Assembly: GCF_022807975.1 (NCBI RefSeq)
Contig: NZ_CP094358.1
Location: 930,001-994,000, forward strand
Source of the DNA: Abyssalbus ytuae
GTDB taxonomy: Bacteria; Bacteroidota; Bacteroidia; Flavobacteriales; Flavobacteriaceae
Direction of reading: 5' to 3'
Length of the DNA stretch: 64,000 nucleotides
The notes under the pieces were generated by a model, which was given only the letters and a program-made list of their open reading frames with translations, was not told the DNA's origin and made no database searches. The stretch's first letter is position 1; each line of letters begins with the position of its first letter. The translations under genes and the position numbers were made by a program. Below are positions 411 through 58,570 of this stretch, piece after piece.

Positions 411-1529
411 TTACTTTCTCCATTGTGTAACTTTCAATATTTTCTCAAAAATATCATTATTTTCATACACTCCTTTAAATTCTTCAGATCCCGGGCCATA
501 TGCAAATACAGGGATTAATGTGGCTGAATGCCCCCCTGTGGAAAAAGTCATTCCGATTTCACGGTAATCACTGTACTCACTGCCATCGTCTCTTTTCTTC
601 TTTTTGGCGGCCAGTGTAAAACCTCCTGTTTCATGATCGGAAGTTACTATAACCAGGGTATTTCCGTCTTCTTTAGCAAAATCAAGGACTTTGCCAACTG
701 CTTCATCAAAATCTATCATTTCGGATACCAGGTAAGAGGCATTATTTTCATGACCTCCCCAATCTACCTGAGAACCTTCTGACATTATAAAAAATCCGGA
801 ATTATCTTTACTTAGATATTTAATTCCCAACTCTGTTGCCTGCGACAGAAAACCTCCTCTACCCTCTGAAATTCTGGGCATCTCCTTTTCTGCCAATAAA
901 AATCCTACCTTTTCTTCAGATTTAATTTCTGAAAAATCGCTAAGAGCTTTGGTATCGATAGTAAAGTTCTTTTCTTTTAATGTAGTTAACAAATTTTGGC
1001 CATCTTTGCGATCATTAAAATATTTAAGTCCCCCTGCTGCAAAAAAATCTACTTCAGACTGAGTGAGGTGTCGGGCTATGTCTTCTTCTAACCCCCTGTT
1101 TAAAACGTGTGCATAAAAACAAGCCGGAGTGGCATGGGTTATTGAACTCGTGGCAATTACTCCAGTTTTAATATTTTTTAGTGAAGCAATCTCTACCATA
1201 TTCTTTACAACGGTTGAGTCAGTAGCTAAACCAATGGCACCATTATAGGTTTTTACCCCGCAAGCAAAGGCTGTTGCGCCGGCGGCAGAATCGGTGACAT
1301 CTTCTTTTGAAGAGGAGGTTTTTATAAGACCTATATTCTCAAACCGGGTATAATTGGGCAGAGATTCCTTGAAGTAAAATGTTGATGAGATTTGTGACAA
1401 GCCCGCTCCATCGCTAATAAGGAGAATTACATTTTTTGGAGTGTCAACTTTTGTATTACCAATATTTGAAGATTTGCAACTAAGTAACACGAAAACGAGA
1501 CAAATAAAAATACTTTTTTTTAATTTCAT
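411..1529 (-). CDS. Secreted alkaline phosphatase (PhoA superfamily) lipoprotein
   Basis: A phosphomonoesterase releasing inorganic phosphate from phosphorylated sugars or other organics outside the cytoplasm. The 372-residue protein starts with a lipoprotein signal (cleavage before Cys18, LLSC). Family hallmarks are visible: the first metal ligand in LLISDGAG (Asp40), the nucleophile in VTDSAAGATAF (Ser81 after Asp80), the metal-binding VDWGGHENN, and TSDHETGGF near the C-terminus. Length is a little short for the family, but all metal sites are present. It is transcribed away from the SusC gene at 2291; the shared 761-base gap holds two LacI-type palindromes, the imperfect one nearer to this gene. 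It could scavenge phosphate generally or finish dephosphorylating sugars released by the neighbouring enzymes; the second idea is inference. Confidence 0.9.
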   Translation of the reverse strand: MKLKKSIFICLVFVLLSCKSSNIGNTKVDTPKNVILLISDGAGLSQISSTFYFKESLPNYTRFENIGLIKTSSSKEDVTDSAAGATAFACGVKTYNGAIGLATDSTVVKNMVEIASLKNIKTGVIATSSITHATPACFYAHVLNRGLEEDIARHLTQSEVDFFAAGGLKYFNDRKDGQNLLTTLKEKNFTIDTKALSDFSEIKSEEKVGFLLAEKEMPRISEGRGGFLSQATELGIKYLSKDNSGFFIMSEGSQVDWGGHENNASYLVSEMIDFDEAVGKVLDFAKEDGNTLVIVTSDHETGGFTLAAKKKKRDDGSEYSDYREIGMTFSTGGHSATLIPVFAYGPGSEEFKGVYENNDIFEKILKVTQWRK

Positions 1530-14502: not shown

Positions 14503-15963
14503 TTAATTCATTTCATATTTAAAACTAAATTCTTTTGAAGGAGTATGCTCTTTTTCCATAATGTGAGATATTTTTTTTACTACTTCCGGGTTTTGTTCAG
14601 CTACATTATTTTTCTCATCAGGGTCTAAGGCAAGATTATAAAGTTCAATCGAAGAATCGGGATTTTCAGACATATTCAAACGCACACCTTTCCAATCTCC
14701 CAGTCTAACTGCTTGTTTTCCTCCATGTTCGTGAAATTCCCAATACAAATATTCATGCTTTTTTTGAGGTTTACCAAGTAGTTCTGGCAAAAAGGAAATC
14801 CCATCAATATTTTCAGGTTTATCTATCCAGGCTATATCACAAGCGGTAGGGAAAAAATCCCAAAATGCCGATACGTGATCTGAAGTGATGTTAGGTTTTA
14901 TTTTCCCTTTCCACGAAGCAATTAGAGGCACCCTTATTCCTCCTTCATATAAATCCCGTTTATACCCTCTAAATTGCGCATTGCTATTAAAATAATCAGG
15001 ATCAGCTCCACCTTCCTGATGTGGGCCATTATCTGAAGTAAATAAGATTATGGTATTTTCAGCTATACCCATATCTTCAACTTTTTTTCTGATTTCACCT
15101 ACTTGTTCATCCAAAATATACATCATGGCGGCAAAAGCAGCATGAGTATCTTTTTGAGAGCCATATCCACCGTTTTTATAACCAGGGCCCTCATCTACCC
15201 CTTTATATTCTTTTTCCGGTAACAATTTCCCTCTGAACTTATCTATATACTCTTCAGGAGCAGCAAGTTCGGCATGAGGAATAATGGATGGGTAATACAT
15301 AAAAAAAGGATTGTCTTTATTTTTTTCAATAAAAGAAAGTGCTTTTTGATGTATAATTTCCGGACCATACACATTTGTATTTTTTACTTTATTACCTTCA
15401 ATTATTTCTTTGGTTTCGTTATTCCACATATGATATGGGTAATAATTGTGTCCTATCCGCTGACAATTATATCCGTAAAATTCATCAAACCCCTGGTTAT
15501 TAGGATTACCTTCAGAAAGCGGGTAACCCAAGCCCCATTTACCAAAGGCTCCCGTTACATACCCTGCTTCTTTCAAACGTTCAGCAATTGTAACCACCGT
15601 TGAGTCGAGGGGGTATTGTCCTTCAGGTTCTATTTCTTTATTTCCTCTTATAAAAGTATGTCCGGTATGAAGTCCTGTCATTAATGATGAGCGGGAAGGG
15701 GCACAAACTGTAGAACCTGAATAATGTTGAGTAAAAAATATGCCGTCTCTGGCTAATTTATCAATGTTAGGTGTTTGGAACTTTTCTTGTCCCGTAAAAC
15801 TCAGATCGCCATAGCCTAAGTCATCTGCCATAATATAGATAATATTAGGTCTAAGTGGAGGATTCTCCGGTTTTGTCTTATGCTGACTTTTACAACTTAT
15901 GAAAAGATAATTAGAAAAAATTAAAAGAATCCAAAACTTTGGAGTTAATATCTTATTCATCAT
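14503..15963 (-). CDS. Type I (S1) formylglycine-dependent sulfatase, lipoprotein
   Basis: Hydrolyses sulfate esters, here probably on a sugar. The 486-residue protein has a lipoprotein signal (LFISC, Cys24). The FGly motif is CAPSR (Cys87, Arg91) followed by SSLMTGLHTGH; metal ligands are visible in MADDLGYGD (Asp47/Asp48) and FTSDNGPHQEGG. The Cys-type motif requires a maturase, which is not in this window. Length is normal for the S1 family; the subfamily and therefore the sulfate position cannot be assigned by eye. It lies between GH92 (195-base gap, no clear hairpin) and GH110 (32 bases), so a sulfated galactose or mannose unit is a reasonable substrate guess. Confidence 0.9.
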   Translation of the reverse strand: MMNKILTPKFWILLIFSNYLFISCKSQHKTKPENPPLRPNIIYIMADDLGYGDLSFTGQEKFQTPNIDKLARDGIFFTQHYSGSTVCAPSRSSLMTGLHTGHTFIRGNKEIEPEGQYPLDSTVVTIAERLKEAGYVTGAFGKWGLGYPLSEGNPNNQGFDEFYGYNCQRIGHNYYPYHMWNNETKEIIEGNKVKNTNVYGPEIIHQKALSFIEKNKDNPFFMYYPSIIPHAELAAPEEYIDKFRGKLLPEKEYKGVDEGPGYKNGGYGSQKDTHAAFAAMMYILDEQVGEIRKKVEDMGIAENTIILFTSDNGPHQEGGADPDYFNSNAQFRGYKRDLYEGGIRVPLIASWKGKIKPNITSDHVSAFWDFFPTACDIAWIDKPENIDGISFLPELLGKPQKKHEYLYWEFHEHGGKQAVRLGDWKGVRLNMSENPDSSIELYNLALDPDEKNNVAEQNPEVVKKISHIMEKEHTPSKEFSFKYEMN

Positions 15964-16158: not shown

Positions 16159-18441
16159 TTAATCAGATAAAGAGAAAGGTTTATCTTCTTCATTTACTCC
16201 TCTACTTTTATTAGGATGATCTGACATCAAAAATTGTAAAGTCCCACCATTTATTATCTCACTATATCTGATATAGTTTTTTGTAAATAATTTCTCATTT
16301 AATAAACCTTTTTCAAGGTAAACATTATTTTCACTATTATTTTTGGCTTCAACTACGAATCTATTTCCATTTTCAAGAGTTATAGTCGCTTTCTTAAATA
16401 CAGGACTTCCGATAACATATTGGTCAGTACCTGGGCATACACTGTAAAAACCTAAAGCACTTAACACATACCATGAAGATGTTTGCCCCTGGTCTTCATC
16501 ACCTGGATATCCGTCTTCTGTATAACTGTAAAGCCTGGACATAACTTCTCTAACCCGATTCTGTGCTTTCCATGGCTGACCTGAATAATTATACAGGTAA
16601 ATGGCATGTTGAATGGGTTGATTTCCATGAGCATATTGCCCCATATCAGCCACTTCCATCTCAGTCATTTCATGGATTCTTCCCCCATAGGTTCCTACAA
16701 CAATTTTATTGGGGACAGTAAAAACCGAATCGAGTTTTTTATTAAAATTATCTTCTCCTCCCATAAGATTGATAAGTCCTTTTGGATCGTGAAATACAGA
16801 CCATAGATAATGCCATGCGTTCCCTTCTGTAAAAGGGCCTCCCCACTCAAAAGGATCAAAATTCCTTTTCCAGTTTCCTTTTTTATCTTTTCCGTTCATA
16901 AAACCGGTTGAACTATCAAAAACATTTCGGTAATTGTACATATGTCTGGAGAAAATATCTTTGTAAAATTGGTTGTTGGTCATATCTGCCAGAATATATC
17001 CACAAAAATCATCGTAGGCGTATTCCAAAGTCTTTGCAGTAGCTTCCTTTACTTCGGGGTATGGCACGTATCCCAAAGTAAAATATTCTTTCCATCCTTC
17101 TCTTCCGTTAGCAGGGCCCCAAGGTCCCTTATTAGTTACTTCATGAAAATATGCTTCCAATGCCTCTTTAGAATCAAAAGTTTGAATTCCTTTTGCCCAT
17201 GCATCTGCCAAAAGAGATATGGCATGATTTCCTATCATACTTCCTCCCTCACTTGGAAAAGACCACGAGGGCAACCATCCACACTGTTCCTGAGCATCTA
17301 ACAACGCAGAAACATAGCGGCCATGCATTTCAGGATATAATAGTGCATTAAGAGGAAATTGTGCCCGGAAAGTATCCCAAAATCCGGTATCGGTATACAT
17401 ATAACCCTGATGAATTTTCCCATCATACGGGCTATAATAATAAGGTTCTCCGCTTTGATCAATCTCATAAAATTTTCTGGAAAAAAGACTTGCCCTGAAA
17501 AAGCACGAATAAAAGGTTTTAAATTGTTCTTCGGTACCTCCTTCTACAAGAATTTTAGAAAGATGATCATTCCATACTTTTTTGGCTTTAGCTTTGGTGA
17601 CTTCTAATTTTTTGTCTTTCCCCAGCTCATGTTTAAGTGTTAATTTTGCTTGCTCAACACTAATGTAAGATGAAGCAATTTTAGTTTGAATTTTTTGCCC
17701 GGGTTTAAATTGAATATATGCCCCGATCCCTCTCCCTTCTTTAGAAAGTTCGTCATTCCATTTCTGGTTATCTCTATTTTCCCAAATTCCACTAGCTATA
17801 AAAGGTTTATCAAACTGAATAACAAAATAATTCTTAAAGTTTTCAAATCTTTTCAATCCTCCTCCATTCCTAACGTAACCCGTAATTCTTCGGTTTTTGA
17901 CATCGATATTTATTTCGCTGGCTCCAGTGTAACCATCGATAACAATCCATGCCTTCTCTTTTTTGGGAAAAGTAAAACGAAGATGTGCGCCCCGTTCTGT
18001 GGGAGAGATTTCAGTATTAACCCCATTTTCCAATAGCACTTGGTAATAATAAGGTTTAGCTGTTTCATTATCATGACTGAATCCCACCTCTCTGGCTTTA
18101 TGGTTCAACTTAAGTTCATTGGTAACAGGCATTAAAGAAAAAACCGCATAATCTCTGGTCCAGGAACTGCATTGATGCGCCTGTTGGAATCCTCTTATTT
18201 TATCTTTAAAATACTGGTATTTCCAACCATCACCGTTTTCTCCTGTCTGGGGTGTCCATGTATGCATCCCGAAAGGGAGGGCTGTGGTAGGATAGGTATT
18301 ACCCCTTGTAAGTTCAAACCTGGAATTTGTTCCCTGTAGGGTATTTACATAATCTGCAAGGTCATTTTCAGGTGGTTGCTTTCCCCATACATGAGAATTA
18401 CTTATAATAAATATTATTAGAATAATTTTTTTTAGCTTCAT
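16159..18441 (-). CDS. GH92 exo-alpha-mannosidase, secreted
   Basis: A calcium-dependent inverting exo-alpha-mannosidase family acting on alpha-1,2/1,3/1,4/1,6-mannosides. I start at the ATG at 18441 (MKLKKIILIIFIISNSHVWG, a clear signal peptide); a longer frame from 18501 would overlap the preceding gene by 44 bases. The 760-residue protein carries GNTYPTTALPFGMHTWTPQTG in the N-terminal beta-sandwich domain, then the (alpha/alpha)6 barrel with GFWDTFRAQFPL, YDDFCGYILA, FTEGNAWHYLWSVFHD (general acid Glu, residue 539 here) and GDEDQGQTSSWYVLSALGFY (catalytic-base Asp region). Unlike the GH92 at 28042-30153 it keeps the general acid. The linkage is not predictable. It lies 16 bases after the unassigned enzyme gene. 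Confidence 0.92.
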   Translation of the reverse strand: MKLKKIILIIFIISNSHVWGKQPPENDLADYVNTLQGTNSRFELTRGNTYPTTALPFGMHTWTPQTGENGDGWKYQYFKDKIRGFQQAHQCSSWTRDYAVFSLMPVTNELKLNHKAREVGFSHDNETAKPYYYQVLLENGVNTEISPTERGAHLRFTFPKKEKAWIVIDGYTGASEINIDVKNRRITGYVRNGGGLKRFENFKNYFVIQFDKPFIASGIWENRDNQKWNDELSKEGRGIGAYIQFKPGQKIQTKIASSYISVEQAKLTLKHELGKDKKLEVTKAKAKKVWNDHLSKILVEGGTEEQFKTFYSCFFRASLFSRKFYEIDQSGEPYYYSPYDGKIHQGYMYTDTGFWDTFRAQFPLNALLYPEMHGRYVSALLDAQEQCGWLPSWSFPSEGGSMIGNHAISLLADAWAKGIQTFDSKEALEAYFHEVTNKGPWGPANGREGWKEYFTLGYVPYPEVKEATAKTLEYAYDDFCGYILADMTNNQFYKDIFSRHMYNYRNVFDSSTGFMNGKDKKGNWKRNFDPFEWGGPFTEGNAWHYLWSVFHDPKGLINLMGGEDNFNKKLDSVFTVPNKIVVGTYGGRIHEMTEMEVADMGQYAHGNQPIQHAIYLYNYSGQPWKAQNRVREVMSRLYSYTEDGYPGDEDQGQTSSWYVLSALGFYSVCPGTDQYVIGSPVFKKATITLENGNRFVVEAKNNSENNVYLEKGLLNEKLFTKNYIRYSEIINGGTLQFLMSDHPNKSRGVNEEDKPFSLSD

Positions 18442-18457
18442 GGTATTAGCGTATTTT

Positions 18458-20668
18458 TTATAGATTAAATTGTACATACACTCCTTCAGGTGAATTCTCA
18501 AATTGTAAATAAAATGTTTTTGAATTATTGTCCCAACCTGCCCCCTTTGGGGTTATTTCTTTTCCCTGAGAATTCATCAACTTTACTGTTTTGGGAACTG
18601 AAGGAAAATATATACGCATACTGTTTATGGTATTTACGGGGCTTTTACATATAAATGAATACCGGTCTTCTTCAATTTTTTCGTCAGATATTCTGGCTGC
18701 TGTTGCCAAAACTTTAGGCTTATTTTGATTATAAGCATATTTAAGGTCATATAAGAAAGCTTGTTCTCCCGGAACTACCATTTTTTGAGTATATACAGGT
18801 AAACGAGGATCAAAAAGGTCAATAACCGGCCCTTGTGCAAAATATGGCTCTTCACTAACACTTTCATCCATAACAGCAATAATTTTATAAGGGCCTCTGT
18901 GAAGTACCAGATTATTTTTAAATTTCAATTCTGTGCCTATACTTTCAAAAGCATTTTTTACTGTATTAATAAATTTTGAATCTCCGTCTTTTTCCATAAC
19001 AAACTTCTTAGGGTTTTGCCTGATAATAAAGACCTTACCTTTCTCTACATTAAAACTTCCTTCACCAGCATTTATAGAAATTCCAAGGTGTTGAAAAAGA
19101 TTCTCTGATGGGGTTTTGAATTTATTCCTCTTCTGGTTCCACCACTCCATCACATCCTGATACGGGTCATCATCTTTTCCCGTATAGATTAGTACTCCAC
19201 CGTTTTTCACCCATCTTGCCAGGTTTGTATGTACTTCTTCTGAGTAGGGTTTCATATTGGAATAGCTCATAATTAAAACCTTAATATTTTTTAAGGTTTC
19301 GTCATATCCAAGGTTTTCCATATGAACCGTTTGAACCGGTACTCCTCTTTTTAAAAGTGGAAGGGTTTGTCCGTAAAAATTAGAAAAACGTGGGTCATCA
19401 TAATTTTCATGCACAGGAAAGCGTTGAAACATCATAGAGTTTCCCATAAGTACTCCTATGTTGTTATTACCACTTACTTCATTATCTGATATAGTGATGT
19501 CGTTAAGAGCATTCACCATTATTTGCATTTGTGTAGAATAATTATGTGAAATAAGTTGCTCTTTATCTGTTCCGGCAACTTTGTATGGCCTGGTATAGAT
19601 ACGTTCCGGCCAGGGCATTACCTCATAATTTTCCACCTGAGGATAAAGTAGCTGCGCTGTGAAAGTGGCCTGATAATTCTTTTTATAATCTTCCCATGAT
19701 TTTCTTCTGTCTTCAATCGGATCGGTTAAAAAAAACATTTTCCTGCTGGTTGGTGCTGTCATAGATGCCATAGACCCATATTCTAAAAATGCATTCTCAA
19801 AAGTTCTTTCTTTTACTTTACCATTATAGAATGTAGCTTCACGCGAAGTTCCGGTCCACACCTGGGCTATATAACCATCTATACCAGATAAGGAAGCAAG
19901 ACTAGCCTCAGGGCTGACAATCATCCAGGAAGAATAATTAACCAGCGAATGAGTTGGAATGTAAATTTTTACGTCAAGTCCCTTTTTCTTTCCATATGAC
20001 TTTGCATAACGAGAAACCTCATCTAAGGTTTTATAATAAAGATGATATTTTAATTTATTAGAAAGCCATGTATTTTCGGGAGATTCATGTTGAGATCTCC
20101 AGGAAAATTTATAATAATTTTTCCATTCTTCTTTAAAAGCAGTACCATAACCACCACGAGCCCAAAACTCCGGTTCTTCAAGATAGATGGAAGTAATACC
20201 GGCATCAATTACACGTTCAATAACTGCCTTCTTCATATACTTAATAAAGCTCTTTTGAGGGACAATATAAGGCACATAGTGACCGTGCCATATAGTGTCC
20301 CCGTTTCTCTGTACCTGTCCTTCATCAAGATGGTTTTTACCATCCCATTTTCCCAAAAAATAATCCTGGTAGGAACCCCAGGCAATACCGGTCATAAAGT
20401 GTGCAGTATAGCCTCGGTCTTTCCATGATTTTACCCGGGCTTCAAAACCTGATTTGCTGTCATGATCCGATGGATTTCCATTAACTCCATATACAATAGC
20501 CACATCAGATCGTACGTCAATTTCAGGTATCCATTTACTCGATGTCTGAAAAACAGTTTTAGCTTTTTCAGCAGTACTCTTAATTTTATTTTGAGCAGAT
20601 AATAGTTGGAAAATAAAAAATGAGCTTATTACAGTTAGTGTTGTTTTATTTAAAATTTTGATTAACAT
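18458..20668 (-). CDS. Putative secreted glycoside hydrolase, TIM barrel plus amidotransferase-like domain; family not assigned
   Basis: I do not recognise a CAZy family. The 736-residue protein has a signal peptide ending near LLSAQ (residue 26). The N-terminal two thirds look like a TIM barrel of the GH-A/GH42 kind: GITSIYLEEPEFWARGGYG (Glu164, Glu165, Glu167) sits where such enzymes place an acidic catalytic residue after a beta strand, followed by KIYIPTHSLVNYSSW and SGIDGYIAQVWTGTSR. Residues about 410-520 resemble the class I amidotransferase-like trimerisation domain of GH42 enzymes (NIGVLMGNSMMF, VLIMSYSNMKPYSEEV, WVKNGGVLIYTG). The rest is beta-rich. Its place between the discoidin protein and GH92 in a PUL supports a carbohydrate role. 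It could be an exo-galactosidase-like enzyme or a new family. Confidence 0.6.
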   Translation of the reverse strand: MLIKILNKTTLTVISSFFIFQLLSAQNKIKSTAEKAKTVFQTSSKWIPEIDVRSDVAIVYGVNGNPSDHDSKSGFEARVKSWKDRGYTAHFMTGIAWGSYQDYFLGKWDGKNHLDEGQVQRNGDTIWHGHYVPYIVPQKSFIKYMKKAVIERVIDAGITSIYLEEPEFWARGGYGTAFKEEWKNYYKFSWRSQHESPENTWLSNKLKYHLYYKTLDEVSRYAKSYGKKKGLDVKIYIPTHSLVNYSSWMIVSPEASLASLSGIDGYIAQVWTGTSREATFYNGKVKERTFENAFLEYGSMASMTAPTSRKMFFLTDPIEDRRKSWEDYKKNYQATFTAQLLYPQVENYEVMPWPERIYTRPYKVAGTDKEQLISHNYSTQMQIMVNALNDITISDNEVSGNNNIGVLMGNSMMFQRFPVHENYDDPRFSNFYGQTLPLLKRGVPVQTVHMENLGYDETLKNIKVLIMSYSNMKPYSEEVHTNLARWVKNGGVLIYTGKDDDPYQDVMEWWNQKRNKFKTPSENLFQHLGISINAGEGSFNVEKGKVFIIRQNPKKFVMEKDGDSKFINTVKNAFESIGTELKFKNNLVLHRGPYKIIAVMDESVSEEPYFAQGPVIDLFDPRLPVYTQKMVVPGEQAFLYDLKYAYNQNKPKVLATAARISDEKIEEDRYSFICKSPVNTINSMRIYFPSVPKTVKLMNSQGKEITPKGAGWDNNSKTFYLQFENSPEGVYVQFNL

Positions 20669-22751: not shown

Positions 22752-24551
22752 TTACCACCCGGTATTCTGGATAAGTTCGGGATTGCTATTAAGTTCATCC
22801 TGTGGAATTGGCCACAGATAGTGATTTTTACTAAAAATACGTTGCTCAAAAACTATCTTATTATAAAAGTTTTCTTCTTCCTTTGCATTAATATCCATAC
22901 TGTGGAAAGGTCCTGCCAGAACCTCTTCGGCTATTTTCCATCTTCTTACATCAAAATATCTTACGCTTTCAAAAGCTAATTCCACTCTTCTTTCTTTCCA
23001 GATAGCTTCACGCATTTCTTCCTGACCAGAAGGAACAGGTAAGTCTTCACCATATTCCGCAATTCCGGCTCTTTCTCTAATTAAATTCAGATACTTTAAA
23101 ATATCAGGATTGCCTGGATCGTATTCATTTAACGCTTCTGCATAATCCAAATAAATTTCGGCCAGTCTTAAATAAGGTATATTGGTACTCCCTTGAGCGT
23201 CTTTCCAATGTTGAGGTGGAAGAAATTTTCTTATGATATAGCCAGTTGGGGGGTAATCGTTAGCACCGGCTTGTTTTCCTGAATTACCGGCATACCAGGT
23301 TGTGGTAATGACATCTCCGTAAGTTCGGTCTATCCATAAACTGTTATTATAAGTAATTCCCACATAAAATCTTGGTTCGCGTCCCACCCATTGATTAAAG
23401 GTAGATCTTGATTCGAAGTCAAAAGGAGCCTGATAGTCTTTAAATCCTGTCTCCTGATATCCCGATAGAGGATCATCTATGGAACGGCCATTGGCCATAA
23501 AATATGCATCTACCATTTCCTGGGTAGGGCTTAATCCACCGCCTCCCCTTACTTCAGAAGGATACCCCAAATGATAGGGTGTACATTCGTAAAAATGAGA
23601 ATTACCTCCCCGTAATCTCGCAAAAATCATTTCTTCATTTAAATTCTCGAACATAACATTTCTACAGGATAAATACGGATCGTAGGTTCCATTTTCATCA
23701 TATTCCTTATAAAGATCAAATGTGTGTGGAACATATGTGTTTATAAATTCTTTAGCAACATCTGCAGCCATTTTCCATTTATTCACATCATAATTTTGTG
23801 GGATTAATGGCTCCCCCTCAGCATTCACCAAAGTGGCATAATCTGAATTACCATTAAATAAAGGACTTGCATAGAATAGCAATGTTTTTTCCTTAATTGC
23901 CATTGCAAACGGATCATCCATCCTGCCTATTTCATCCTTACCCTGAGTGTATTTACTTAATACTTCAATTCCTTTATCCAGTTCACTAATTATATAGTTA
24001 ACACATTCATCCAATGTGTTTCTTCTAAGGCCCAAAGCATCCAAATCGGCATCAGCTTCTACCGGCGTTTCCGGCATAATAAGCACGGGGCCATAAAGCC
24101 TAATCAAATTATAATAGTAAAAAGCCCTGAGGACACGTGCTTCTGCTGTAAATTTTTCGATATCCGTCGGAGTACAATCCTGACATTTGTTGACATTTAG
24201 CATAAAAGTTGATGCTGACCTGATAGCCTGATAAAAATTAGACCATAAAGTATTTACATGCCCGGTTGTGGGATTCCAATCTCCTATATTAAAATAATTC
24301 CCTAAGTGAAAAGACCACACATACTCTCCTTCATCAGAACCTCCGGTAGCAGGTACTGAGTTACTTGCAGAATACCTCTGGTCAAAATTACTGGGGACAT
24401 GGTTATACACTGCTGTCAAGTACATTTCGACAGTTGTCTTTTTGGAGAATGTTTCCTCAAAAGTTAACCGGTCATCCGGAACCTGATCAAAAAAATCATC
24501 GTTACATGATAATGCTAAGAGCACTAAAAGTGTCATTATTATTTTTTTCAT
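22752..24551 (-). CDS. SusD/RagB-like surface glycan-binding lipoprotein
   Basis: Surface partner of the SusC-like receptor encoded 11 bases upstream. The 599-residue protein has a lipoprotein signal (LLALSC, then NDDFFDQVPDDRLTFEETF), AEARVLRAFYYYNLIRLYGP in the helical core, and C-terminal motifs YLRLAEIYLDYAEALNEY, IRERAGI, KERRVELAFESVRYFDVRRW, ending in LIQNTGW. It is clearly less similar to the other SusD proteins of the window than those at 5432 and 45248 are to each other. A terminator follows the stop codon. Confidence 0.95.
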   Translation of the reverse strand: MKKIIMTLLVLLALSCNDDFFDQVPDDRLTFEETFSKKTTVEMYLTAVYNHVPSNFDQRYSASNSVPATGGSDEGEYVWSFHLGNYFNIGDWNPTTGHVNTLWSNFYQAIRSASTFMLNVNKCQDCTPTDIEKFTAEARVLRAFYYYNLIRLYGPVLIMPETPVEADADLDALGLRRNTLDECVNYIISELDKGIEVLSKYTQGKDEIGRMDDPFAMAIKEKTLLFYASPLFNGNSDYATLVNAEGEPLIPQNYDVNKWKMAADVAKEFINTYVPHTFDLYKEYDENGTYDPYLSCRNVMFENLNEEMIFARLRGGNSHFYECTPYHLGYPSEVRGGGGLSPTQEMVDAYFMANGRSIDDPLSGYQETGFKDYQAPFDFESRSTFNQWVGREPRFYVGITYNNSLWIDRTYGDVITTTWYAGNSGKQAGANDYPPTGYIIRKFLPPQHWKDAQGSTNIPYLRLAEIYLDYAEALNEYDPGNPDILKYLNLIRERAGIAEYGEDLPVPSGQEEMREAIWKERRVELAFESVRYFDVRRWKIAEEVLAGPFHSMDINAKEEENFYNKIVFEQRIFSKNHYLWPIPQDELNSNPELIQNTGW

Positions 24552-24562
24552 ACCTCTTTTTT

Positions 24563-27500
24563 TTAAAATAAAACATTAAAACCAAAAGATACCACCGATA
24601 CGTTCGGGTAAGCGGTACCGTTACCTGTATTTAATTCAGGATCCCAAAGATCAAAATTGGTGAATGTTATCAAATTGGTGCCCCGCAAATAAAATCGGGT
24701 ATTTTCTACACCAATGTTATTAGAAAATGTTTCAGACATGGTGTATCCAATCTCAGCGGTTTTTAATCTTACAAAGTCAATATCTTTTAACCACCAGGTA
24801 CTGGTTTGTGAATTATTGTTTTGGCCAATTCCGGTGTCTCCAAAAGATAACCGGGGATAAAAAGCATTTACATTGTTATTTTCCGGTGTCCATCTATCAA
24901 CAGCGATAGCATACATATTTGTGGTTCCGCCACCACCATCAAACGGCCTGATGCCACTACCCTTTATTATCCTGTCGGCTTCATGCTGACCCTGAAAAAA
25001 CATACTTACATCAAAACCTTTATATTCAGCAGTAATCCCAAATCCATAGGTAAGTGCGGGTACATCTCCCTGACCAATTTCTTTTTGGTCAAAAGCATCA
25101 ATCTGGCCATCTCCGTTAAGGTCTTTATATCTAATATCACCCGGCATTATCTGACCAAACTGAGTGGGAAAATCACCATCATCAGGAGTAATAAAACCAT
25201 CACCATTCGTATCATCTTCCAGAGAATACAATCCCACCGCCTCATAGCCGAATATAGCCAGTAATGGGGTGCCTACGTGATCCAGCCACTCATAGCGCTG
25301 CTCAGGTTCACCGTTTTGAAGGATTTTGTTTCTATTAAAAGAAAAAGTACCTCTGAACCCCATATTTAGCTTTCCGAAAGAATTATTGAAATTAATACTT
25401 CCATCAAAACCTTTATTTTCGACAATTCCCAAGTTTCCATACGGATCTCCTGTCAGACCTAAATAGTTAGGTAAATCACTTCTTTCAAGAAAAGCACCTT
25501 CCGTACGTTCTTTAAAGACATCAAAAATTATTTGCAATCTATTATTAAACATGTTTAACTCCAGGCCTATGTCTTGTTTTCTCGCCTCAGCCCAGGTTAC
25601 ATCCACTCCATAATAAGTTTCACGTATACCATCCTGATCGGTATAGCTATCTCCGAAAGTATACTCAAAATCTTTTTTTCGTTCCACTTTATCCAGGTAA
25701 GCAAATCTTCCTGCGCCTGATTCGGAACCCACAAGACCATCTGAATACCTGATTTTCAAATAATTAATAGTATTGGTTAAGGGCTCAAAAAACTTCTCAT
25801 TTGAAATTACCCACCCAACTGCTAATGAAGGAAAAAAACCATACCTGTTAGATGGCGCAAAATTTTCGGATCCGTTATAACCGGCATTGACTTCAAAGAA
25901 ATACCTGTCATCGTACGCATATGTAGCCCGTCCTGCAATTCCCCTATTTCTGAATGGAATAGATTCGATAAAATCACCTGCAAAGGCATTCACATAATCT
26001 GATTGATTGTATAGTAACAAACCACTCACCGAATGTTTACCAAAATTTCGATTATAATTAAAAGAGGTCTCTATATAAAATCTCCTGTTACCTCCATTAT
26101 CTCTCTCATAACCTAAATAATTCTGACCTGAATATGTTTCATTTAACAAAAGTTCCCCGTTTTCAGTGTAAGGATAATTTTCATCCACAAAATAAGTAGA
26201 CTCCCTTTTTTCCCTTTTTATGATTTGCTCATTATAAGCATCAAAAGCAAACATTCCGGACCAGGACAAACCTTCGGTTAAAAAACTTAGTTGCTGAGTT
26301 AAACGGATATTAGAGTTTAATTGGCTTTTTACTTCTTGTTTATATCCTCTTCGAGCCACATCGGCATAAGGATTCCTTAACCCTCCGTTTGAGCTTCTAC
26401 CCGGTACAAAACCGCCGGGATATAATATTGGGTATACTACCGGCGGAGCATCCATAGCGGCACTAAAAACCGAACCTGTACCTGCTCCAGGATAAGTACC
26501 GTTAGATACATATCCCTGCATTCCTACATGAACATTGGTCGTTTTAGTTATATCTACTGTTAAATTAGATGTAAAATTGTATCGTTTAAATCTGGTATCA
26601 GAATCATAATCTTCTAATCCATCTGTTACAAATAAACCCGTTTCATCATAATAACTTGCCGAAACATAATAAACAGCATCTTCAACACCACCCGTCACAT
26701 TTATAAAAGCCTGCCTGGTTTGCCCAAAATCATTAAAAACAGCGTCCAGCCAGTCCACATCCGGATAGAGGAAAGGATCTACCTTATTTACTGTATTTCG
26801 TATATATTCTTCAGAATACTTTGGTTCCTGACCACGGGTAACGAGGGCTTCGTTAGCCAACCTCATATAGGTTTCACCATCGGCCAAGTCGGGAATTTTT
26901 GTAAAAAAAGTATATCCTTCATTATAATCTATAGTAACCTGAGGTTTTCCCAATGCTCCTTTTTTAGTTTCTATAAGAATAACCCCGTTTGCACCCCGAA
27001 TACCATATACAGCTGTTGCAGAGGCATCTTTCAGAATAGTAAAAGAAGATATATCGTTAGGGTTTAAATTATCTAAAGATCTTTCAACTCCATCTACCAA
27101 TACCAAGGGATGAGTAGCATCGCCAAATGTGGAAATACCCCGTATCCAAATATCGGCTCCATCATAACCCGGCACCCCATCACGCTGGACACCCGTTAAA
27201 CCTGACACCCTACCGGCAAGCATGGTACCTATATTGGCTACCGGCTGTTTGAGTTCAGCAGGTTTTATTGTAGATTGAGCTCCCACCACACTGATTTTCT
27301 TTTGCTTACCGTAACCTACAATTACTACTTCATCAAGAGACTGCATGTCCTCCTCCATTGTTACGTTTATAACGGTACGTTCTCCTACCGTAACTTCATA
27401 GGTTTTCATTCCTAAATAAGAGAACACAATAACTGAGTTTTTTGAATCAACTCTTATAACATATTCTCCATCAAAATCAGTTTGAATACCATTAGTGGTG

Positions 27501-27742
27501 TTTTTCTCCACTACTGCTACTCCCGGAAGAACTTCTCCTTTTTCGTCAGTAACAACCCCCGAAATAGTAATATCTCCTTGTGGAGGTTGTTGAAAATCAA
27601 ATGCAAAAACACTTTGATTTGTTGTTATAACTAAAAAAGAATAAACCAAGAGTACATGTAATATACTACCTCTCAGGCAGCTTACAATATGACTCCTCTT
27701 TCTTTTTAGAATAAGGTTAAGAATGTTAAAATTTTTCATCAA
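24563..27742 (-). CDS. SusC/RagA-like TonB-dependent outer-membrane receptor
   Basis: Oligosaccharide importer leading the GH92/sulfatase/GH110 operon. The 1059-residue protein starts MMKN (either Met possible) and has an unusually long basic N-terminus before the hydrophobic signal segment (LLVYSFLVITTNQSVFA). Then come a carboxypeptidase-regulatory-like domain (about 58-135), the plug (about 140-250; EVVIVGYGKQKK, DASATAVYGIRGANGVILIETKKG) and the barrel, ending in a C-terminal Phe. No STN domain. A LacI-type palindrome 36 bases upstream of the start would overlap or adjoin the promoter, so repression by a LacI-family protein is likely. Confidence 0.95.
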   Translation of the reverse strand: MMKNFNILNLILKRKRSHIVSCLRGSILHVLLVYSFLVITTNQSVFAFDFQQPPQGDITISGVVTDEKGEVLPGVAVVEKNTTNGIQTDFDGEYVIRVDSKNSVIVFSYLGMKTYEVTVGERTVINVTMEEDMQSLDEVVIVGYGKQKKISVVGAQSTIKPAELKQPVANIGTMLAGRVSGLTGVQRDGVPGYDGADIWIRGISTFGDATHPLVLVDGVERSLDNLNPNDISSFTILKDASATAVYGIRGANGVILIETKKGALGKPQVTIDYNEGYTFFTKIPDLADGETYMRLANEALVTRGQEPKYSEEYIRNTVNKVDPFLYPDVDWLDAVFNDFGQTRQAFINVTGGVEDAVYYVSASYYDETGLFVTDGLEDYDSDTRFKRYNFTSNLTVDITKTTNVHVGMQGYVSNGTYPGAGTGSVFSAAMDAPPVVYPILYPGGFVPGRSSNGGLRNPYADVARRGYKQEVKSQLNSNIRLTQQLSFLTEGLSWSGMFAFDAYNEQIIKREKRESTYFVDENYPYTENGELLLNETYSGQNYLGYERDNGGNRRFYIETSFNYNRNFGKHSVSGLLLYNQSDYVNAFAGDFIESIPFRNRGIAGRATYAYDDRYFFEVNAGYNGSENFAPSNRYGFFPSLAVGWVISNEKFFEPLTNTINYLKIRYSDGLVGSESGAGRFAYLDKVERKKDFEYTFGDSYTDQDGIRETYYGVDVTWAEARKQDIGLELNMFNNRLQIIFDVFKERTEGAFLERSDLPNYLGLTGDPYGNLGIVENKGFDGSINFNNSFGKLNMGFRGTFSFNRNKILQNGEPEQRYEWLDHVGTPLLAIFGYEAVGLYSLEDDTNGDGFITPDDGDFPTQFGQIMPGDIRYKDLNGDGQIDAFDQKEIGQGDVPALTYGFGITAEYKGFDVSMFFQGQHEADRIIKGSGIRPFDGGGGTTNMYAIAVDRWTPENNNVNAFYPRLSFGDTGIGQNNNSQTSTWWLKDIDFVRLKTAEIGYTMSETFSNNIGVENTRFYLRGTNLITFTNFDLWDPELNTGNGTAYPNVSVVSFGFNVLF

Positions 27743-28041: not shown

Positions 28042-30153
28042 TCAATCTATTTTAGTAGCAAAACTATTTTGTTTTCCCCAATTTTTGTCAGGTTGAGCAG
28101 ATGTTTCGATTATCATTTCTCCTCCATTGGATATTTCTTTATGTGTAAGCCAGTTTCTTTTTAATTCCTTACCATTTAACCATACTGATTTAATATAATA
28201 GTGATGCGGATGGTAGTTTTTAACCTGAATAACAAACTTCTCTTTATGGGTCCAGTTAATTTCAACTTTTTTAAAAATGGGAGCTGTAATATAATAAGTT
28301 GGTGTACCTACATTTACAGGTGACAAACCCATACTGCGCATCACAAACCATGATGACATTGTTCCCGCATCATCATCCATAGTACGTAAATAGGCTTTGG
28401 GTTTATTTTGATAAATTCGTCCTATATACGGATCTATACCTTTACTGTTATTGTTGAAATACGCCTGCACCATGGTATCCAATAGAATCTGCCGGAACAA
28501 TTTCTGAGATTTCCAGGGTTGTGAAGTTGCATTGTATAAACCCGGAACCTGAAGATCAGGTTGGTTGGCATGATTATAATTATGTTCTGCAAAAAAGAGG
28601 TCTAATTGTTCTGTGAATTTTTCTTCTCCTCCGGTAAGCTGCTTTAATCCTTCAATATCAAATGGCACAAACCAGCGGTATTGCCAGATGGTTCCCTGAT
28701 ATAGTCCACGGGCCTGCATTCTGTCAACATCACCACGGCTTAAATCGGCAAAATCTTTTTTCCAGTGTTCTTTATACTTTTTGGCCTCGCTTAAATAAAC
28801 GTCAGCCAGATTTTTTTCTCCAATAAATCGAAGTATTTCGGACATGGCCCACTTATCATAAGAAGTTTCTAAAGCTTTATCAGGAGAATCGTACTTTAAA
28901 GAATTGGCCTCTTCTACCAACTTATCTTTTATTTCTTTTAAATTAACATCATAACCCTTTTTAACGGCATCCAGTAGCACAACCATTGCATGTTCTGTTC
29001 TAACAGTTGGAGAGGGCTCATGCCTGGTAGCCCATTCCTGTTTACCATATTTATACATATTAGCGATGGACCAAACAATATTTTTATACTTTTCAGGATA
29101 CAATAAAGAGAGCATGGGAAGTTGCTCCCTGTAATTATCCCAAATGGCCCAGCCATTGTAAACAGTATTATTGGCATGTTGAAGCGATCCGTCTATAGCC
29201 CTGTATGAGCCGTTTTTCTCAGAAATTGAATAAGGTGATTGCAATCCCCGGTATAAAAGCGAATAAAATAAATCTATTCTATCCTGCTCACCTTCAACTT
29301 TTACTCTTCCCAGAGTTTTATTCCATTCTCTTTGGGTTTCCACAAACAGATCTCTACTTTCATTTTCCAGAATACGCTGTAAAGCATATTCTTCATTTAC
29401 TGAAGAAAAAGCAATTTCAACCAAGACATTGCTTGAATTCCCGTTTATAAGATATTGATGAACTTCTTTTTTTTCTATTTGATAATCCTGGGGAAAGCGT
29501 ATGGCAAAATAAATTCTATATATACCTCTGCTACAGGTTGTTTCGGTATCTATCCACCCTTTAATTATGTTTCCGGTAACCTGATGTTCCTCGTTTTTAA
29601 ATCTTCCTGACAAAGCAAATGCCAAATCCAGGTACAGTCCGTTTGAAGTTTTGGGAAAATAAAAATGGTGAATTCCATAATTAGCTCCCGCCACCATATC
29701 GGCAATAATTCCATTTTCAAATTCTACACGATAATTTCCCGGTTTGCCATGTTGTTTCTTTTTAATTAGTTTAGTGTCCGGATTTTGGCCTGAAAAAGGT
29801 TTTATCAAAATATTCCCCCCACTACCAGTGCAGCCTACTCCTTCAATACGCGTGTGAGTAAATCCTAAAAATTCTTTTGCATAATATTCATAACCTGTAT
29901 GGATATGAGGATTGGTTTGAGGGCCAATACTCATCATACTAAACGGATAAGAAGCAGAAGGGGACATCTGGCCATGGTCGCCGGAAGTACCCAAAAAAAC
30001 ATTTACTCTTTCACTAGCATTTACCGCCTCCTCCTTTCCTTTTTCTAATGGTTTACAGGAGAAAACTACTAACATCAGAAGTAAAAAAAATACTTTGGTA
30101 TTGAATGAGCTTTCTTTTTTTGGTTTATTATTTTCAGAGTTTAATACATACAT
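28042..30153 (-). CDS. GH92-family glycosidase with Gln in place of the general acid
   Basis: A lipoprotein (VVFSC, Cys33) of 703 residues with the GH92 layout: N-terminal beta-sandwich (VNVFLGTSGDHGQMSPSASYP, HTRIEGVGCTGSGG) and a helical barrel (YNGWAIWDNYREQLPML, DDDAGTMSSWFVMRSMGLSPV). In the motif that normally reads EGNxWQY, this protein has GLYQGTIWQYRW: Gln486 replaces the expected general acid Glu. The second GH92 here (16159-18441) keeps Glu. In a characterised GH92 from Cellulosimicrobium a Gln at this site goes with hydrolysis of mannose-1-phosphate-6-mannose, where the phosphate leaving group needs no acid (from memory). So a phosphomannan-type activity is possible; loss of activity is the alternative. 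It is the last gene of the mutarotase-led operon, 24 bases after GH31. Confidence 0.85.
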   Translation of the reverse strand: MYVLNSENNKPKKESSFNTKVFFLLLMLVVFSCKPLEKGKEEAVNASERVNVFLGTSGDHGQMSPSASYPFSMMSIGPQTNPHIHTGYEYYAKEFLGFTHTRIEGVGCTGSGGNILIKPFSGQNPDTKLIKKKQHGKPGNYRVEFENGIIADMVAGANYGIHHFYFPKTSNGLYLDLAFALSGRFKNEEHQVTGNIIKGWIDTETTCSRGIYRIYFAIRFPQDYQIEKKEVHQYLINGNSSNVLVEIAFSSVNEEYALQRILENESRDLFVETQREWNKTLGRVKVEGEQDRIDLFYSLLYRGLQSPYSISEKNGSYRAIDGSLQHANNTVYNGWAIWDNYREQLPMLSLLYPEKYKNIVWSIANMYKYGKQEWATRHEPSPTVRTEHAMVVLLDAVKKGYDVNLKEIKDKLVEEANSLKYDSPDKALETSYDKWAMSEILRFIGEKNLADVYLSEAKKYKEHWKKDFADLSRGDVDRMQARGLYQGTIWQYRWFVPFDIEGLKQLTGGEEKFTEQLDLFFAEHNYNHANQPDLQVPGLYNATSQPWKSQKLFRQILLDTMVQAYFNNNSKGIDPYIGRIYQNKPKAYLRTMDDDAGTMSSWFVMRSMGLSPVNVGTPTYYITAPIFKKVEINWTHKEKFVIQVKNYHPHHYYIKSVWLNGKELKRNWLTHKEISNGGEMIIETSAQPDKNWGKQNSFATKID

Positions 30154-30177: not shown

Positions 30178-32763
30178 TTATTTATCATTCAGGTTATTTA
30201 ATTCTAAATATTCGATAACCGGCCGAACACTTTCCGGTGGCAATGTTGGTATTGAAAGTAATACACCAGCCATAGAACTTTTAAGTGTATTAAGTCTTTC
30301 CATTAGGGTATATGTTTTTTCAGGATAATAAAAAATCCGGTTCGTAATATTACCCACTTCGTAAACGGGATCAGGCAAGGTACCTATCATATTCTTAGAT
30401 GCTACTTCAAATTTTAGTTTTTCTGTTGCCTGTACCACCCTTTTTAAGAAACCCTTATTTCCATTAAAAATTTTTAACTGATCGGCAAAAGAGGTATCAA
30501 ATATCATTTCTATATCTATTTTTTCCGTAACAGGCATTTCAGGAATTTCTACAGATACTGTTAATTCCCTGCTCAAATAATTAGCTTTTACAGTTTTTCC
30601 GTTAATAATTACGGCTTGTGGCAATGTTGAATTTAATAACTTTAACTCAAAAGCTTGTTTTTGGGGCATCCCGTTATAATATCCTGTAGCCGGGTTAATA
30701 GTTATTTTCATAGTCCTATCACTGGTATTTTCACGTATAACAGTTCTGGTTGAAAAACTACCTTTTTGATACTCATTGGTAGCTTCATCATCACCATATA
30801 ATTCTGTTTTGGCCCTTGAAGTACCCGGAATAAAAGAAATTACCTGAACCGCTGGTTTTTCCTGAAGGTTTTTCACCTCCGGATTCATATGAATAATAGA
30901 TCCTGCTTTTATAAAAAAGGGTATTTCTTCTTGTGAATAAAAACGTTCTACTTCCCTGTTACCTTGTAGTAAAGTACCAGAATGGTATTCAAACCAATCT
31001 CCTTCCGGAAGCCATATCTTTTTTGAAGCTAACCAGTTCAACTTTGATAAGGGAGTAGTAACCGGAGATACTAATATATCGTCACCAAACATATATTGGC
31101 CTTTATAAGTATAAGCTTTTTCCTTCTCAGGATAATCGTAGTACATTGGCCGGCAAACAGATATTCCTGTTTTATAGGCTTGAAAAGCAGTATGATATAT
31201 ATAGGGGGCAAGAGTATATCTAAGCTTAATGGCGCCTCTCATATCATGAAAATATTGAGGAAACATCCAAAACCGGCGTTCTATCTCAGATATTTTAGAG
31301 GAGTGTGTGCGCAAAATAGGACTAAATACTCCGTATTGTATCCACCGTAAATATAATTCTCCATCAGTAGGACCGTTATTTGAAAAATGGCCTCCGATAT
31401 CATGGCTCCAATATCCGTATCCTACGTTAGATGCTGTGGAAGTAAAATAGGGTAAAAAGTCCAATGATTCCCAACTGGAATAAGTATCTCCTGAGAAACC
31501 AACCTGATAGCGGTGATTTCCCATTCCTCCCCACCTGTGAAATAATAACGGGCGCTGTTCCTTTTTTTCCATATTTGTAAAAAAAGTATAATTAAGCCAC
31601 CATGTATTACTGAGGTTTTTAAAGTTTTTATCTTCGAGATATTGTTGCCAATCTAGCCACCAGAAATCTACTCCCCATTCTTCCATAGGTTTGAGGATTA
31701 CATCAAAATAAGTTTTTGCCCATTTTTTATCGGACATATTGAAAGGAATGTATTCCTTTTTGGAAGTATCAAAACCATATACTCCGGCAAATTCTTCATA
31801 GTGTTTTTCCATATTGGATATTCCCGATGCAGGATGTAAATTCAAAGCAGTCTTTAAATGTTGTTTATTAGTCCATGCCATAAACTTCTGCGGTTCCGGA
31901 AACAGATCTTTGTTCCATGTATATCCTGTCCATCCTTTTAATTCGCCCATAGGGTCTCTTTCGTTAAGACCGTATGTATAATGCCAATCCATATCAATTA
32001 CCAATACATCTATAGGAATACCAAACCCTTTTATATCTTTTATCAATTCTCTAAATTCATTATCGTTGTAAGTCCAGTAACGGGACCACCAATATCCAAA
32101 TGCAAACTTGGGAGGCAACGGAATTTTTCCTGCTACTTTAGTGTAATCATTTAATGCTTTTTTATAATCATTTCCATAGGCAAAAAGATACCAGTCGATA
32201 GCTGTGGAATCTGTTCGTTGTGTTACCCAGTTCCAATCTACCGAACCATCAAATAAATTAGTTTTACTGTCATCTACCAAGGCCCAACCGCTGCGGGATA
32301 GTATACCTTGTTCAAGATGTTTTTCATAGTCCCAGCCCCGTGCATGATCAAGTGTTCTTAAAGTTCCTTTAAGATTCAAAGTATCTTTGGTTCCTGGTGT
32401 CCAAAGTATTTTTTTATGCTTGCTACCTTCAATCCTTACGAAAAGGTTCTCAGCATGAAAAGGGTTGCCATCATTTGTGTATTTTAGTAATAGCTTATCG
32501 GTTTTGAGGATGATCTCTTTGCCTTTTTCCCTTTTTGTAAACTTTGGTACGGGGAGGTTTCTGTTTATAAATACCAGGGAGGCTTTGTCTTCAAATTTTC
32601 CAGACTGGGAATATTCCATACGGATCATTTCAGGAGTTAGCACCGTGAATCGTGCGTTACCCCAAACGATAGTGGAAGCAGGATTAGCTACCGGATTTTG
32701 TTGAGGAAATACGGCTATGGACCAACCTGATATTAAAAAGAAAAATAAAACATGTAATTTCAT
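30178..32763 (-). CDS. GH31 family alpha-glycosidase, secreted
   Basis: A retaining alpha-glycosidase of clan GH-D-like fold; family activities include alpha-glucosidase, alpha-xylosidase and alpha-galactosidase, and specificity cannot be fixed here. The 861-residue protein has a signal peptide ending near IAVFPQ (residue 21), an N-terminal beta-sandwich, then the catalytic barrel: PPKFAFGYWWSRYW, DVLVIDMDWH, the nucleophile in VDFWWLDWQ (Asp371), HRWGGMG, the acid/base in GFSGDT (Asp426) and YWSHDIGGH. C-terminal beta domains follow, with a helical tail of about 70 residues (EVASKNMIGTLPDPVYEVGN) not usual for the family. The gene lies 10 bases after GH3 and 24 before GH92. Confidence 0.9.
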   Translation of the reverse strand: MKLHVLFFFLISGWSIAVFPQQNPVANPASTIVWGNARFTVLTPEMIRMEYSQSGKFEDKASLVFINRNLPVPKFTKREKGKEIILKTDKLLLKYTNDGNPFHAENLFVRIEGSKHKKILWTPGTKDTLNLKGTLRTLDHARGWDYEKHLEQGILSRSGWALVDDSKTNLFDGSVDWNWVTQRTDSTAIDWYLFAYGNDYKKALNDYTKVAGKIPLPPKFAFGYWWSRYWTYNDNEFRELIKDIKGFGIPIDVLVIDMDWHYTYGLNERDPMGELKGWTGYTWNKDLFPEPQKFMAWTNKQHLKTALNLHPASGISNMEKHYEEFAGVYGFDTSKKEYIPFNMSDKKWAKTYFDVILKPMEEWGVDFWWLDWQQYLEDKNFKNLSNTWWLNYTFFTNMEKKEQRPLLFHRWGGMGNHRYQVGFSGDTYSSWESLDFLPYFTSTASNVGYGYWSHDIGGHFSNNGPTDGELYLRWIQYGVFSPILRTHSSKISEIERRFWMFPQYFHDMRGAIKLRYTLAPYIYHTAFQAYKTGISVCRPMYYDYPEKEKAYTYKGQYMFGDDILVSPVTTPLSKLNWLASKKIWLPEGDWFEYHSGTLLQGNREVERFYSQEEIPFFIKAGSIIHMNPEVKNLQEKPAVQVISFIPGTSRAKTELYGDDEATNEYQKGSFSTRTVIRENTSDRTMKITINPATGYYNGMPQKQAFELKLLNSTLPQAVIINGKTVKANYLSRELTVSVEIPEMPVTEKIDIEMIFDTSFADQLKIFNGNKGFLKRVVQATEKLKFEVASKNMIGTLPDPVYEVGNITNRIFYYPEKTYTLMERLNTLKSSMAGVLLSIPTLPPESVRPVIEYLELNNLNDK

Positions 32764-54877: not shown

Positions 54878-58570
<3,693 letters not shown>

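Follow-up and report, generated by a model that had tools for sequence, protein, structure and literature searches.

A glutamine-bearing GH92 protein of Abyssalbus ytuae is a predicted hydrolase of mannose-1-phosphate diesters

The GH92 protein encoded at 28042..30153 on the minus strand of the window, by which we mean the whole stretch of 64,000 nucleotides analysed here (positions 930,001 to 994,000 of contig NZ_CP094358.1 of A. ytuae), is probably an exo-acting glycosyl-phosphate hydrolase of the CcMan5 type, which is predicted from its sequence and modelled structure to free mannose from mannose-1-phosphate (Man-1-P) diesters. The open reading frame specifies 703 amino acids, and both GH92 Pfam domains score above their curated cut-offs (PF07971, 289.2 bits; PF17678, 112.1 bits), as does NCBIfam TIGR01180 (288.5 against a cut-off of 249.55). 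By eye, the hydrophobic N-terminus, which ends in LVVFSC, reads as a lipoprotein signal.

The first-pass annotation had placed a glutamine at the position of the catalytic acid, and this reading holds. The codon at 28698-28696 on the minus strand is CAG and encodes Gln486 within ARGLYQGTIWQYRW, in the general-acid column that contains Glu in 32/32 canonical GH92 rows of our alignment (BT3130 included), and no other Glu of the protein takes the aligned position. The annotation gave the usual flank of this site as EGNxWQY; the Glu stands, and the surrounding residues are more varied than this wording (EGNxW, EANxW, ESNxW and others), which is without effect on the point about the acid site. The second GH92 protein of the window (16159..18501, minus strand) keeps its Glu, in FTEGNAWHY, as had been stated. 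Asp595 (28369..28371, minus strand) aligns to Asp637 of BT3130, which is named as the general base of that enzyme (PMC5930347), and an Asp occupies this column in every row of the alignment, including 84/84 rows of the Bacteroidota Gln clade.

This clade was assembled from a seed alignment (A1) of the window protein, three relatives of 60-62% identity that have Gln and two relatives of 38% identity that have Glu. A profile search with A1 of the GTDB genome collection, with one genome per GTDB species, gave 263 confirmed relatives; the 80 most similar to the window protein were kept, and the counts therefore describe constraint within the clade and are no census of GH92. Together with the window protein and L012-L014, these 80 loci make up 84 rows, the others sharing 51-69% identity with the window protein and coming from the Flavobacteriaceae, Sphingobacteriaceae, Hymenobacteraceae, Chitinophagaceae, Prolixibacteraceae, Marinifilaceae and other families. 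Gln is found at the acid column in 84/84 of these rows, and also in all four outlying rows (CcMan5, Streptomyces L125, Novosphingobium L123 and Persicobacter L124). Invariant columns number 118 of the 657 that are well filled, and 8 of the 75 columns at which the window protein has Glu or Gln are invariant in the clade, Gln486 among them. The same 80 loci contain 20 further GH92 genes, spread over 11 loci, and all 20 encode Glu. Since Gln recurs in 84/84 rows from separate genomes, we can rule out for practical purposes that it comes from an error in sequencing or assembly, or from a local substitution that arose by chance. Four Gln members (L067, L071, L074 and L110) have Leu in place of Trp after the site (GTILQY versus GTIWQY).

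In canonical GH92 enzymes a Glu protonates the leaving sugar, an Asp activates water and Ca2+ is needed, as is reported for several members and generally understood for the family (PMC5930347, PMC12858847, PMC10167667). Replacement of this Glu by Gln abolished the activity of AnGH92A on mannosides (PMC12858847), and the E533Q form of BT3990 is reported to have substantially lowered activity, which was not fully lost (PMC10167667). A fixed Gln therefore argues for another leaving group, while the residual activity of the BT3990 variant leaves cleavage of ordinary mannosides possible for an enzyme with Gln. Phosphate, as a leaving group, does not have to be protonated. Mannosylphosphate caps come off even in mild acid (PMC5992200), and on these two grounds an enzyme for mannosylphosphate can do without the acid.

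We propose that the window protein is an inverting, presumably Ca2+-dependent hydrolase of GH92 fold that would take terminal alpha-mannose off Man-alpha-1-P-O-R. Asp595 would activate the water molecule that attacks C1; a phosphomonoester would leave, for which protonation is not required, and Gln486 would stand in for the general acid and keep negative charge away from the phosphate. Arg385 and a glycine-rich loop (residues 105-113) probably hold the phosphate, with the usual +1-sugar loop gone. The R-O-phosphate product would then be dephosphorylated by a partner enzyme, which in the window may be an alkaline phosphatase (411..1529, minus strand), and which in some relatives may be an adjacent purple acid phosphatase, alkaline phosphatase or GDPD-type phosphodiesterase. 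The remaining mannoses would presumably be removed by Glu-type GH92 enzymes.

The first-pass annotation had cited, as a precedent, a Gln-bearing GH92 enzyme that cleaves mannose-1-phosphate-6-mannose. This enzyme is real: it is CcMan5 (also CcGH92; 2xsg/4aq0) of Cellulosimicrobium cellulans, which has its Gln in GLYQGT and which Tiels et al. reportedly described in 2012 as a Man-1-P-6-Man hydrolase. The papers differ on the linkage, with Man-alpha-1,6-PO4-Man given as the target in one (PMC5930347) and mannose-alpha1,4-PO4-mannose in another (PMC9522356). CcMan5 is the best PDB sequence match of the window protein (phmmer 1.9e-64; next GH92 1.4e-57). The structure-based comparison with characterised GH92 enzymes, run by VIA-align on an AlphaFold model of the window protein (pLDDT 86.8), also ranked CcMan5 first among solved structures (Z 43.8 over 653 residues, rmsd 2.1), ahead of BT2199 (39.4), in a list headed by 16 GH92 entries with Z of 34-44. 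The motifs GLYQGT and TMDxDAGTMS are common to the two proteins. Like the window protein, CcMan5 has Gln in GLYQGTxWQY, an Asp base and counterparts of Arg385 and Glu387; unlike it, CcMan5 is actinobacterial, has DND where the window protein has DDD at the base motif and NEIDLQ where it has NQPDLQ, and carries a longer loop before the latter motif. Raw identity between the two is 28%, no higher than the 25-28% seen with canonical GH92 enzymes, and the A1 profile scores BT3130 (363 bits) slightly above CcMan5 (351 bits).

In a tree of 30 rows, the Bacteroidota Gln clade, CcMan5 with L125, Persicobacter L124, Novosphingobium L123 and the divergent Glu rows group together against nine canonical enzymes (100/100), and the same split was obtained with another sample of rows (100/99). 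The CcMan5 branch is long (3.37), and long branches are general in this tree; L125, a 65% relative of CcMan5, lies on a Streptomyces plasmid. The kinship with CcMan5 bears on a reading in which the window protein is an inactive GH92 fold that serves as a mannose-binding protein. Such a reading would fit the loss of the general acid, the inactive Glu-to-Gln form of AnGH92A (PMC12858847) and the crystallization of an E. faecalis GH92 Glu-to-Gln form with ligand (title of entry 7fe2). It sits poorly with the conservation of the base in the whole Gln clade and with the reported activity of CcMan5, which has the same Gln (PMC5930347); we reject the protein as a pseudoenzyme and regard this reading as very improbable.

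The superclade thus delimited in the tree comprises 91 rows and is set apart from canonical GH92 at 18 columns by the cut-offs we chose. Arg385, Glu387, Asp533, Asp593, Gly110 and Gly112 are each present in 91/91 superclade rows, and among the canonical rows Arg385, Glu387 and Asp533 occur in 0/32 and Asp593 in 3/32. Arg385 (28999..29001, minus strand) is two residues past Thr383, which aligns to Cys399 of BT3130, a residue on the plane that separates the -1 subsite from the +1 subsite (PMC5930347). Since a phosphodiester substrate would call for an Arg beside the scissile bond, Arg385 is a candidate phosphate ligand. Residues 383-387 read Thr-Val-Arg-Thr-Glu in the window protein, TVRWE in CcMan5 and Cys-Met-Ile-Gly-Asn in BT3130; Glu387 (28993..28995, minus strand), a candidate relocated acid or partner of the Arg, stands in a column where canonical rows have Tyr or Asn (Tyr in 26/32). 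The superclade-specific glycines 110 and 112 belong to the loop GVGCTGSGG (residues 105-113; 29815..29841, minus strand). A short loop, LFFAEHNYNHANQPD up to Asp533 (about residues 519-533; 28555..28602, minus strand), measures 15 residues in the compared stretch, against 23 in CcMan5 and 30 in BT3130. The canonical +1-subsite loop, which lies ahead of the NEP motif in BT3130 (where a 580-loop is described; PMC5930347) and so before Gln531-Asp533, is missing from the window protein; with this loop cut to 15 residues, the protein must bind the second sugar in another way. A second Glu-to-Gln change is found in the same region, at Gln531 in NQP (28561-28563), a column with Glu in 30/32 canonical rows and with Gln in 54/84 and Glu in 30/84 rows of the Gln clade.

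The superclade also contains members with Glu at the acid column (3/3 rows of the divergent Glu group): a paralogue in this genome (L008, G000:C1:2434602-2436572), L015 from another genome of the family, and L122 from Catenovulum. They keep the counterparts of Arg385, Glu387 and Asp533, and the superclade residues alone therefore do not dictate Gln. These rows also weigh on the reading of the window protein as an ordinary alpha-mannosidase whose general acid has been relocated to another carboxylate, Glu387, Asp533 or Asp593. The invariance of the three residues in the superclade and their absence or rarity in canonical rows are what such an enzyme would be expected to display, but the Glu members, which carry the same residues, would then have two acids, and CcMan5, which carries them as well, is reported to cleave a phosphodiester (PMC5930347). 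We consider a relocated acid unlikely, and retain the glycosyl-phosphate hydrolase as the preferred assignment.

The free tree nests the Glu rows inside the Gln rows, with at least three changes at the acid site, and a simple single-origin story for Gln was not retained on this account; a tree constrained to a single Gln clade is worse by 19.4 log units, yet is not rejected (AU p 0.086). Gln in both of the deepest lineages (that of CcMan5 and L125, followed by L124) favours an ancestral Gln with Glu regained; the long branches limit this reading. A strict 36-base pattern for the Glu members, with synonyms and few residue changes allowed, matched only the paralogue of this genome among 395 genomes of the phylum; the Glu pattern alone was run, and the result gives no ratio of Glu to Gln.

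A GH28 gene adjoins the Glu member both in L164 (18 kb around L015) and in L122 (a Catenovulum plasmid). GH125 and a PI-PLC-C1 phospholipase are also found near the Glu member in L164, and an inositol oxygenase and a metallophosphoesterase in L122; these surroundings hint at a mannose-inositol-phosphate substrate. The paralogue of this genome (L163) has a GH31 gene directly upstream. It is our speculation that the Glu members may cleave an ordinary glycosidic bond in the vicinity of a phosphate. The presence of a Glu paralogue in the same genome and scaffold provides a natural comparison of Glu and Gln, and makes the idea that a good leaving group needs no acid directly testable.

The gene context of the Gln members was compared by calling and clustering the open reading frames in the flanks of the 80 loci, each cluster being named from one Pfam-scanned member. 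The adjacent gene on the same strand encodes a phosphoesterase in at least 18 of the 80 loci: a GDPD protein (with DUF4996) in nine, a purple acid phosphatase in seven and an alkaline phosphatase in two. Recognised phosphoesterase clusters occur anywhere in the flanks in 20/80 loci, with at least 60/80 lacking one, and neighbours from unlabelled clusters (47 of 54 Pfam-scanned, counted over 25 of 95 families) include at least two Exo_endo_phos proteins, which stand outside the count of 18. As a control, the 76 neighbours, on either strand, of 38 canonical GH92 genes included at least two metallophosphoesterases; this count is a lower bound, taken over 25 of 41 and 25 of 58 neighbour families, and all control loci are from the family of the window. 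The excess has a Fisher p of 0.019; because the loci share ancestry and one sample is taxonomically broader than the other, we read it as about four gene lineages or associations rather than 18 independent events, and not as a test. In L041, the nearest relative, a purple acid phosphatase gene lies about 50 bp downstream of the Gln GH92 gene. The proposal of the first-pass annotation that the substrate is a phosphodiester-linked mannose thus draws predictive support from the tree, the modelled fold, the superclade-specific residues and the phosphoesterase neighbours.

A DUF218 protein of about 420 residues (for example L047:1041-2300, plus strand) is encoded in 44/80 Gln-GH92 loci, in 35 of them adjacent and on the same strand, and the gene order SusC-SusD-DUF218-GH92Q is seen in 26/80; the protein seems to be one of the partners of a compact locus for uptake. 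Within their flanks, 69/80 loci have no second GH92 of the cluster. GH76 is present in L091, L109 and L118 (one member Pfam-scanned), and GH125 adjoins the Gln gene in L098. The Rufibacter loci L109 and L118 combine GH76, two Glu-type GH92 proteins and a ROK protein, as expected for alpha-mannan.

Within the window, the immediate neighbours of the Gln GH92 gene are GH31 and SusC genes. The GH31 gene (30178..32763, minus strand) is directly upstream, with 24 bases between; the SusD and SusC genes (22752..27742, minus strand; SusD by Pfam, SusC by clustering with a Pfam-scanned SusC of the window) are downstream and have 60-65% counterparts in Salegentibacter L041 and L042. The alkaline phosphatase gene is 27 kb from the Gln GH92 gene, and its counterparts in Flavivirga L054 (77%) and Maribacter L064 (72%) are directly beside the Gln GH92. 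The Glu-type GH92 of the window has counterparts of 69-76% in the Gln-GH92 loci L054, L109, L118 and L120, and a 736-residue protein with no Pfam or NCBIfam match (18458..20668, minus strand) has counterparts of 55-68% in 4/80 such loci. Since counterparts of these three genes (55-77%) occur in L054, L064, L109, L118 and L120, each of which has at least two of the three or similar genes, the window seems to contain this gene set as well, spread over 30 kb among GH31, GH3, GH127, GH2 and sulfatase genes.

The 736-residue protein contains invariant acidic motifs (such as EEPEFW) and could mark an undescribed glycoside hydrolase; its AlphaFold model, from five sequences, is poor (pLDDT 58.6). The same gene cluster encodes a sulfatase (14503..15963, minus strand; Pfam) and a protein with a GLAA-B beta-barrel and a beta-helix domain (12605-14470, minus strand), which we take to be GH110-like. 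Elsewhere in the window, 54983-58570 (plus strand) encodes a GH2 beta-galactosidase-like protein with an N-terminal ricin-type lectin domain.

The first-pass annotation had named fungal phosphomannan as a possible source of the substrate, and this fits some relatives better than it fits the window. Fungal phosphomannan is plausible for those relatives that have GH76 or GH125 in the locus. Among the 30 window proteins scanned there was no match to GH76, GH125 or GH38; against a GH76 cut-off of 25.9 bits, the genome has a partial match that scores 25.3 (27.7 together with its neighbours) and another at 19.5, and it has no GH38 match. A search for GH99 gave no match, and neither did its control. 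Outside the window it does encode GH125, five canonical GH92 proteins and the Glu paralogue; its GH26 was set aside as irrelevant. Because the GH76 match is marginal and GH38 had no match, the chemistry is supported for the window enzyme while the polymer is left unassigned. A variant of the main reading, which is not exclusive of it, keeps the chemistry and replaces phosphomannan by another compound, such as a mannosyl-phospho-glycerol, a mannosylated inositol-phosphate head group or a bacterial capsule repeat. The marginal GH76 match and the lack of a GH38 match in this genome, the compact SusC-SusD-DUF218-GH92Q loci, the many loci with a single GH92 of the cluster, the GDPD genes beside the Gln gene in 9/80 loci, the PI-PLC-C1 gene of L164 and the inositol oxygenase and metallophosphoesterase genes near the Glu member of Catenovulum all point this way; the GH76 and GH125 genes of L091, L109, L118 and L098 point back to mannan. 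We regard such a compound as a serious candidate, somewhat short of probable.

The canonical enzymes BT3990, BT2199, BT3130, BT3965, EfMan-I and NnGH92 share with the window protein the fold (Z 34-39), the base Asp and both Pfam domains; they differ in their Glu acid, in residues 383-387, in lacking the GVGxxGxGG loop and in their long +1 loop. PbGH92_1 of Polaribacter is, like the window protein, a GH92 from a marine member of the Bacteroidota, and it targets an anionic mannan, a C6-sulfated alpha-1,3-mannan; unlike in the reaction proposed here, the sulfate is on the mannose removed and not in the bond that is cleaved, and the text consulted mentions no change at the acid site (PMC13063451). 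Salegentibacter sp. Hel_I_6, from the genus of the nearest relatives L041 and L042, has a fungal alpha-mannan locus with several GH92 genes (six GH92, GH76 and GH125), and words beginning 'phosph' are absent from the main text of the paper that describes it (PMC9213526). The CcMan5-type enzyme is already known as a type, and what is newer here is the large clade from Bacteroidota; among the literature matches listed, we found no description of the Bacteroidota Gln clade, its phosphatase partners, the DUF218 loci or the switch between Glu and Gln.

A wider reading, which we offer tentatively and hold to be possible rather than likely, is that GH92 contains a large superclade of glycosyl-phosphate hydrolases, found in Bacteroidota, Pseudomonadota and Actinomycetota, whose core is an invariant Arg that binds phosphate and whose acid site changes between Gln and Glu to suit the leaving group. 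Its Bacteroidota members would often be fed by small, dedicated loci (SusC-SusD-DUF218-GH92Q, joined in some cases by a phosphatase or GDPD gene), which would take up and degrade a compound with phosphodiester-linked mannose that has yet to be reported as a nutrient. Demannosylation of Man-1-P diesters exposes mannose-6-phosphate on yeast-made therapeutic enzymes, and CcMan5 is the only enzyme named for it in the GH92 literature searched. If our reading is correct, the Bacteroidota clade, sampled here in 80 genomes (the best 80 of 263 relatives), would offer many new enzymes of this kind, and its pairing in places with phosphatases would suggest that bacteria regularly feed on mannose linked through phosphate.
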